Source: Salipaludibacillus sp. LMS25 (GTDB taxonomy: Bacteria; Bacillota; Bacilli; Bacillales; Salisediminibacteriaceae). Taken from it: a DNA stretch of 64,000 bases. A model generated the notes under the pieces. The model was not told the DNA's origin, searched no databases, and was given only the letters and a program-made list of their open reading frames with translations. A program made the position numbers and the translations under genes. The stretch spans positions 3,504,001 to 3,568,000 of the forward strand of contig NZ_CP093299.1 in assembly GCF_024362805.1 (NCBI RefSeq), in the 5' to 3' direction. Positions 4,606-53,429 of the stretch are shown in pieces; the stretch's first letter is position 1; each line of letters starts with the position of its first letter.

Positions 4606-5329
4606 TCACGGAAAAAACACTTCTATAAGTACCATAATATTAAAAAATATCCTTTTTTAATAGCATTAGATAAAAAAGATTAGGTTTTATAGTCATTTAG
4701 GTGTCAAAGTAATTGTGTTATAACGTATAAAGATGTGGAAAATCAGGCCATATTGACTAAATTCAAATGACGGAAATGCGGGCATATATACCTTAATAGC
4801 CATTTATTTCCGCTACATTCATTGTTTTTTCCTAATTTAAGTAGAGCGTCACATTAAATAATACCATTTTTATAGTCCTTTTCGAATAGGAGACGTATAA
4901 AAATAGGGGGTATTTAACAAAAAATCACAATTATCTAGTGGTGGCGAATGAGGGTTAAAGCCAATAATATCAAGGGAATGACAATTTTCTTGTTTTTTTC
5001 TAACTAATAATAAATGAGAGGTAGACCTAATTGACTAATTATAAAGGACTGTTTTAGCGTAAGAGGTAGTTTAGTAAGCTTATACACGTCGTTTATCACA
5101 GAGAGTGAATAGGGAATAATAGATAATTTTGATAATTTAAGTATTTGTACTCATTTACATATTTGAGGGAAAATATTATGATTTAGCTACTACATTCGTA
5201 ATATAGAACATAACGGGGGTGGATTGTCAGGAAGGATGTCAATATAACTAAGGAAATTTGTCGGATATGTCGAATTTACTAGCTATCGTTCGTTATAAGG
5301 AATTAAGTACACATACTATATTATATCAT
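4606..5329. other. AT-rich stretch with no recognised gene
   Basis: About 720 bases with stops in all frames and no recognisable domain. The last part should contain the promoter of the c-di-GMP riboswitch; a TATATTAT-like -10 candidate occurs near 5318-5325, but no convincing -35 is seen. Confidence 0.5.
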
Positions 5330-5430
5330 CTACTCATTCAGAAAAGGCAACCCTATCGAAAGGTCGGGACGCAAAGCTGTGAATCTAAGGGATGAGCACA
5401 TTCTATGATTGCACAGTCGCCTCAATGGAG
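5330..5430 (+). promoter_or_regulatory. Cyclic di-GMP-I (GEMM-I) riboswitch
   Basis: The core matches the GEMM-I aptamer: AAAGGCAACCC, a GAAA-capped first stem (CTATCGAAAGGT), the invariant GGGACGCAAAGC, then the second stem closing with GATTGCACAG. Flanking bases (ACTC near 5331, GAGT near 5427) can close the outer helix. The 3' part contains GCCTC (5419-5423), which is complementary to GAGGC (5441-5445) within the ribosome binding site of the next gene, suggesting translational control; whether ligand turns expression on or off cannot be read with certainty. No terminator hairpin separates the aptamer from the gene. Confidence 0.82.
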
Positions 5431-5452
5431 TGACATAAGGGAGGCTTACCTC

Positions 5453-5584
5453 ATGCTCACTATTAAAAGAGAAGAACAACAAGATCAAGAATGGGTGGCA
5501 CTAATTCAGGCTGCGAAAGAACAAGGTCTGACTCCAGAAGAAGTGCGATCCTTTTTAAAGAAACAGCAAAAAAAACAGCATTAA
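5453..5584 (+). CDS. SinI-like anti-repressor, 43 residues
   Basis: The short protein MLTIKREEQQDQEW.. continues VALIQAAKEQGLTPEEVRSFL, matching the SinI dimerisation domain (DQEW..L...A...G.TPEE.R.FL). SinI peptides bind SinR-type repressors through this helical hairpin and relieve repression of biofilm matrix genes. The ATG at 5453 follows AAGGGAGGC with good spacing and lies about 20 bases after a c-di-GMP-I riboswitch. No SinR partner is in the window. The C-terminal SinI tail is shorter than in Bacillus subtilis (57 residues) and ends KKQQKKQH. Identity as a SinI-domain protein is confident; its target is inferred. Confidence 0.8.
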   Translation: MLTIKREEQQDQEWVALIQAAKEQGLTPEEVRSFLKKQQKKQH

Positions 5585-5872
5585 AGATAAAGGCTATGAG
5601 CTACTTTAATGTTTTTTGTAGTAATAAATCCCTTGATTTAAGGTGTCTTCTCGTACAGATAGGTTCAGCAAATAGGGAGAGTTCAATGTAAACGTTGAAC
5701 ACACACAAGTGGGTTAAGAAGTTAGATAGTGATTGTCTGACATTGTGAAATAACAAAGTAAGCGTTTTTGTTTCGAGGAATATACGTTTGGTGGAAGTTC
5801 ATAAAAAACCTGGAGCAATATATTGAGATTGGGTACATAGAACCAGGCTACTAGTTGTGTAAAGAATGGTTA

Positions 5873-53228: not shown

Positions 53229-53267
53229 GATCAATAACAATACAAGACTCTTTAAAATAAACTGAGT

Positions 53268-53362
53268 TATCGCTACGCCACTTTCCTACGCTAGTATGAA
53301 CTAGATCAGGTTCAAAGGGATTAGGATTGCATACCTATCTCAGCCAAAAGGCACCCCTAGTG
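53268..53362 (-). promoter_or_regulatory. TPP (THI-box) riboswitch
   Basis: The minus strand reads GGGGTGCC...GGCTGAGATAGG, then CCCTTTGAACCTGATCTAG and GTTCATACTAGCGTAGGAA, the two conserved thi-box blocks. Confidence 0.95.
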
Positions 53363-53429
53363 GATTTTGTCTATGAAATTATAAGTTTAGTCTACCATGA
53401 CTTGCCAAGGGAATCAATGCCAATGTATA

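Follow-up and report, generated by a model that had tools for sequence, protein, structure and literature searches.

A 64,000-nucleotide stretch of the Salipaludibacillus sp. LMS25 genome, hereafter the window, carries a c-di-GMP-I riboswitch that probably acts as a translational ON switch for a SinI-type anti-repressor, a reading to which we assign a probability of roughly 70%. Without ligand, the RNA at 5429–5461 would fold back on itself, hiding both the ribosome-binding site and the start codon in a hairpin. Binding of c-di-GMP would stabilize the P1 helix (5331–5338 with 5424–5432), which would take nucleotides 5429–5432 from the hairpin and thereby open the start site. The SinI protein produced would then bind SinR, of which the genome has a single copy, and relieve its repression. 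If the pairing works as read, a single small RNA would link c-di-GMP to the matrix repressor in many bacteria related to Bacillus subtilis, a species in which, to our knowledge, the second messenger is not regarded as a direct input to SinI/SinR.

The aptamer and the gene behind it

The Rfam covariance model RF01051 (c-di-GMP-I, GEMM-I) aligns over its full length (model positions 1–87 of 87) with an E-value of 1.5e-07. The GEMM core that the initial annotation had read from the letters is in place, with GGGACGCAAAGC at 5366–5377, the GAAA loop at 5358–5361 and GCC at 5419–5421. The elements of the leader and the gene, all on the forward strand, are as follows.

5331–5338, forward: 5' strand of P1, UACUCAUU, pairing with 5424–5432
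5336–5424, forward: c-di-GMP-I (GEMM-I) riboswitch aptamer, RF01051 at 53.1 bits (gathering score 35)
5424–5432, forward: 3' strand of P1, AAUGGaGUG, sharing 5429–5432 with the predicted sequestering hairpin
5429–5461, forward: predicted start-codon hairpin (sequestor), AGUGACAU..AUGcUCACU, pair probabilities 0.85–0.95
5439–5444, forward: SD-like GGGAGG, 8 nt 5' of the ATG
5453–5584, forward: SinI-domain gene of 43 aa, PF08671 at 49.6 bits, PDB match 1b0n_B

The specificity position 20 is a G at window position 5346, as it is in 58 of the 60 riboswitch-sinI leaders collected from the family (see below). The remaining two, L086 and L134, carry an A at this position, as cGAMP-type variants do; some SinI genes may therefore answer to cGAMP.

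Downstream on this strand, the first gene begins 28 nt after the aptamer ends, farther than the approximately 20 bases of the initial annotation. Its assignment as a 43-codon gene with a SinI motif was borne out by the Pfam domain PF08671, which scores well above its cut-off of 31.4 bits in this stand-alone protein, and the top PDB matches are SinI chains (1b0n_B, E 7.6e-06, and 5tmx_A). The NCBIfam model for the SinI equivalog, NF046031, scores 42.9 bits against a cut-off of 80, and we therefore term the protein SinI-type rather than an equivalog of B. subtilis SinI. An alternative start at ATG 5405, giving 59 aa, lies inside the aptamer with no visible SD and was judged unlikely. Elsewhere in the window, a TPP riboswitch (RF00059, 81.2 bits) occupies 53266–53368 and a frame resembling an IS21-type transposase, identified by eye, occupies 465–1970, both on the reverse strand.

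Leader fold and direction of control

Across the 60 family leaders, the gap between aptamer and start codon is 19–44 nt (median 31.5). Since these gaps are short and leave little room for a terminator, control at translation, which the initial annotation had proposed, is most likely as judged from the leaders. In line with this mode, a forward-strand scan covering the window leader (5000–5800) found no intrinsic terminator. The sole terminator-like match lies on the reverse strand at 5348–5366, over the GAAA-capped stem of the aptamer, and a terminator was rejected as the expression platform.

The translational platform originally suggested was a pairing of GCCTC in the aptamer with GAGGC at the ribosome-binding site. 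Both motifs exist, at 5419–5423 and 5441–5445, yet their base-pairing has a probability of 0.001 in the folded leader (5316–5473), and we rejected it as the main platform. The fold favors instead the hairpin at 5429–5461, in which the start codon is buried. Compared with shuffled sequences, this start hairpin is more stable in the window (z -2.3) and in relatives L078 (-3.6) and L125 (-4.7); in the orthologue-like leader L086 it is not significant (z +0.5). Its 5' arm and the 3' strand of P1 overlap at 5429–5432 and are predicted to be mutually exclusive; binding of the ligand is therefore expected to free the start site.

Comparison of seven orthologue-like leaders shows changes on both sides at two of the eight P1 pairs. 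For the window sequestor, no pair is changed on both sides among the seven, and in three of them the four outer pairs do not form in this register. A different sequestor, of 10 bp, would serve the same purpose in 17 named relatives: CCUGAAAUAC/GUAUUUUAGG, which takes up the conserved CC of the aptamer together with the first half of the SD. Of 170 cells in this pairing 99.4% are paired, against 33–51% when the strands are slid. The variation consists of U-A to U-G and A-U to G-U changes and one unpaired cell, with no pair changed on both sides.

We also folded the leaders with and without a ligand constraint, as the initial annotation had suggested. With aptamer and P1 imposed, opening the ribosome-binding site became cheaper by a mean of 3.46 kcal/mol, with 49 of 60 leaders above 1 kcal/mol and none below -1. 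Platforms swapped between leaders behaved alike, however, with a mean of 3.13 kcal/mol over 720 swaps (Wilcoxon p 0.13). In the window leader, for which the script picked a P1 register other than the covarying one, 8 of 12 swapped platforms were equal to or better than the native one. As native and swapped platforms are nearly equal, the energy test does not show the direction of the switch and was rejected as proof of an ON switch. A run without P1 imposed gave a weak difference in SD openness, 0.30 free and 0.37 bound.

These results bear on the opposite polarity, in which the ligand would leave a GAGG/CCUC hairpin over the ribosome-binding site, SinI would fall and SinR would stay active. 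The modelled bound window leader does keep a small GAGG-CUUA-CCUC hairpin over the SD, and an OFF switch is compatible with the energy test given its swapped-platform control. Nonetheless, without ligand these nucleotides are predicted to fold as part of the larger hairpin, the outer arm of which is in competition with P1, and the sequestor of the 17 named relatives, by taking the conserved CC of the aptamer, fits an ON switch. Moreover, for none of the 60 leaders did opening cost over 1 kcal/mol more in the bound state, although the measure itself leans that way. High c-di-GMP generally favors sessile life, which also speaks against SinI falling upon ligand binding. Taken together, we consider an OFF switch unlikely.

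Recurrence of the pairing

The initial annotation had proposed looking for a SinR homologue and for the same pair in related genomes, and both were found. Within the 4.5-Mb genome, PF08671 has four matches, one in SinR, a protein carrying both HTH_3 and a SinI domain (L039:5513-5836), and three in stand-alone proteins. RF01051 likewise has four matches, and all three stand-alone SinI genes have a c-di-GMP-I riboswitch directly upstream. With three of three SinI genes preceded by one of only four riboswitches in 4.5 Mb, the pairing is far beyond chance. The genome also has nine GGDEF matches, and means to make c-di-GMP are therefore present.

One of the three pairs adjoins sinR: its sinI faces an HTH gene lacking a SinI domain, followed by sinR, both on the opposite strand. 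At this locus (L005, 1623–1636), an SD-like run precedes a mini-ORF, ATGCAATTATAA, that ends in a stop codon overlapping the sinI start codon (TAATG), an arrangement that suggests coupled translation. The fourth riboswitch of the genome (G000:C1:1608697-1608785) has, by eye, a terminator-like hairpin behind it, and the genes that follow, also named by eye, are PLP-decarboxylase-like and chemotaxis-receptor-like.

The genomic context also informs on the partner of the protein. The aptamer could bind its ligand while the SinI-domain protein serves a partner other than SinR or acts as a decoy, a possibility compatible with the ON switch. The low NF046031 score and the presence of three SinI paralogues in one genome fit this view. 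On the other hand, the only PF08671 match joined to an HTH is that of SinR, the other three residing in proteins of 41–54 aa, and sinR itself lies next to one of the three SinI genes with a riboswitch; such an alternative thus seems to us slightly less likely again than an OFF switch. A profile search of the genome for PF12389, the family of TasA, a classic SinR target, gave zero matches, and a biofilm outcome is therefore an assumption.

In the family to which the genome belongs, a c-di-GMP-I riboswitch precedes 60 of the 81 stand-alone SinI genes. The sample comprised 35 genomes, of which 29 contain PF08671, with 115 matches; 31 SinR-like frames were set aside, 81 matches were fetched in 80 stretches, and three belong to the LMS25 genome itself. 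In 57 of the 80 fetched stretches, Rfam models place a c-di-GMP-I riboswitch just upstream on the same strand, and in seven of these (L067, L106, L110, L123, L137, L139, L148) the GGC variant RF03167 scores better than RF01051. Leaving out L121, L129 and L146 as SinR-like and including the three genes of LMS25, 60 of 80 genes are paired; a second SinI match at L089, without an aptamer of its own, was counted as unpaired and gives 60 of 81. Start codons were chosen by script and re-chosen at a few loci. Each of the 29 genomes with PF08671 has at least one pair, and among family SinI genes less than 5 kb from a SinR gene, 16 of 18 are paired.

Of the 30 stand-alone SinI genes in the genus, 26 have a riboswitch in front. 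The reading, if true, would explain the site of action of many c-di-GMP riboswitches of this lineage, as 26 lie before SinI genes and the eight genus genomes have 46 c-di-GMP-I matches in total, a count made with stricter filters than that of the paired genes. An orthologue-like counterpart of the window gene, with aptamer, occurs in seven of the eight genomes, which, together with the kept core nucleotides and a P1 maintained by changes on both sides, makes it very unlikely that a decayed aptamer, no longer responsive to ligand, has left the pairing as a relic, even though the window aptamer is the weakest of the four in the genome (53.1 against 69.4–79.8 bits), its GAAA-capped stem has one mismatch, and the orthologue-like aptamer at L086 scores 47 bits.

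Outside the family but within the same order, 36 of 125 PF08671 matches, a total that includes SinR-like ones, have a riboswitch at most 250 nt upstream. These pairs are spread over 29 of 65 genomes (41 with PF08671) and 23 of 46 family codes. A further 36 matches with frames below 105 aa are unpaired, and 53 have longer frames. At this level stand-alone and SinR-like proteins were split by a frame length of 105 aa, with one paired match at 111 aa; 38 riboswitch positions were picked by eye, and the unpaired matches were compared by eye with the full lists. The 17 named relatives come from a DNA-pattern scan of named genomes with 25 matches, 17 before SinI-like genes and eight not. They comprise eight Jeotgalibacillus, four Sutcliffiella, Bacillus tianshenii, Bacillus sp. 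RO1, RO2 and FJAT-29814, and Neobacillus niacini. Sixteen of the 17 proteins score above the PF08671 cut-off, with L182 below it at 28.8 bits.

Upstream sites and relation to known systems

Upstream of the aptamer lie two further elements.

5268–5274, forward: perfect TGTCGAA, with a near copy, TGTCGGA, at 5259–5265
5288–5303, forward: GTTC-N8-GAAT, one mismatch from GTTC-N8-GAAC, a candidate SinR operator

The heptamer TGTCGAA, a 0A box (Spo0A site), occurs in 11 of the 60 stretches upstream of riboswitch-sinI pairs, where 0.87 are expected from shuffles. One of 300 permuted heptamers matched this count, and all but one of the 11 loci belong to two sets of related genes.

GTTC-N8-GAAC is an inverted form of the SinR motif published as GTTCTYT (PMC3163267). 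The exact dyad is found at 4 of the 60 loci, with 0.04 expected from shuffles and 0.15 from other parts of the loci. At up to one mismatch there are 21 sites, with 2.6 and 5.7 expected, respectively. The window has a second one-mismatch dyad at 5194–5209, and dyads upstream of sinI occur also at L078, L086, L125 and L126, the last two being near copies. Genome-wide, the exact dyad is rarer than its control (62 versus 97, forward strand), so only the local excess is meaningful, and the GTTCTYTNNARAGAAC pattern at two mismatches showed no enrichment (118 versus 119 in the control). These sites hint at a Spo0A input and at feedback of SinR on the gene of its own anti-repressor.

Among the genome-wide dyad matches listed, three exact copies fall within 134 bp (G000:C1:2888446-2888579; L204, L232), upstream of a lone gene for a CpaF/VirB11-like ATPase, named by eye, which is a candidate SinR target. 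A pilus operon behind this ATPase was considered and dropped, as inspection by eye found no pilus genes among the listed frames.

More tentatively, and short of even odds, SinI/SinR may be a c-di-GMP effector circuit in much of the order, with several riboswitch-controlled SinI proteins converging on one SinR. Each of these SinI genes would have a riboswitch to itself and might thus have its own c-di-GMP threshold. Some of these genes might also be under Spo0A, through 0A boxes, and under SinR, through GTTC-N8-GAAC, so that the decision for sessile life would be made by an AND gate with a double-negative loop. B. subtilis would then stand apart, having lost the RNA input or never acquired it.

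The component parts are of known kinds, and at least one publication already contains the pairing, as an annotation. The initial annotation had known of no described riboswitch-SinI pairing, but a 2015 table for Bacillus methanolicus MGA3 lists (c-di-GMP)-sinI at BMMGA3_08510, an assignment obtained by searching mapped 5'-UTRs with Rfam (PMC4342826). The likeness to the present case is close, namely an Rfam-annotated c-di-GMP riboswitch in a mapped sinI 5'-UTR. The available portion of that paper devotes to it a table row and a sentence, with no test of switching (PMC4342826), whereas we describe three paired paralogues, wide conservation and a platform model. None of the literature matches listed examines a c-di-GMP riboswitch on sinI by experiment, and the available portions of PMC3971182, PMC12747935 and PMC6143707 contain nothing on a riboswitch-sinI pair. 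New here are the breadth of the pairing and its multiplicity per genome, neither found in print among the matches listed, as well as the platform model and the hints of control by Spo0A and SinR.

Several known systems share individual features with the one proposed. In Bacillus thuringiensis 407, raised c-di-GMP goes along with raised sinI expression, and the available text does not claim a riboswitch at sinI (PMC7793685). The Bacillus cereus group riboswitches Bc1, reported with two terminators, and Bc2, which controls a collagen adhesion protein, belong to the same aptamer class and likewise occur in Bacillales (PMC11218506, PMC4933901); in contrast to these, the target here is an anti-repressor, the gap is short and no terminator was seen. 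The B. subtilis sinI-sinR locus, where the switch is fed by Spo0A, resembles ours in a small SinI-hook protein expected to disarm SinR and in a Spo0A-type site upstream (PMC3163267). It differs in that the B. subtilis genome among our 14 controls contains SinI without an RF01051 match. In Paenibacillus, a c-di-GMP-I riboswitch has been proposed antisense to a SinR-like gene (PMC9943018), which likewise links this RNA class to the Sin circuit; that RNA runs antisense to the repressor gene, whereas the one described here is the sense leader of the anti-repressor.
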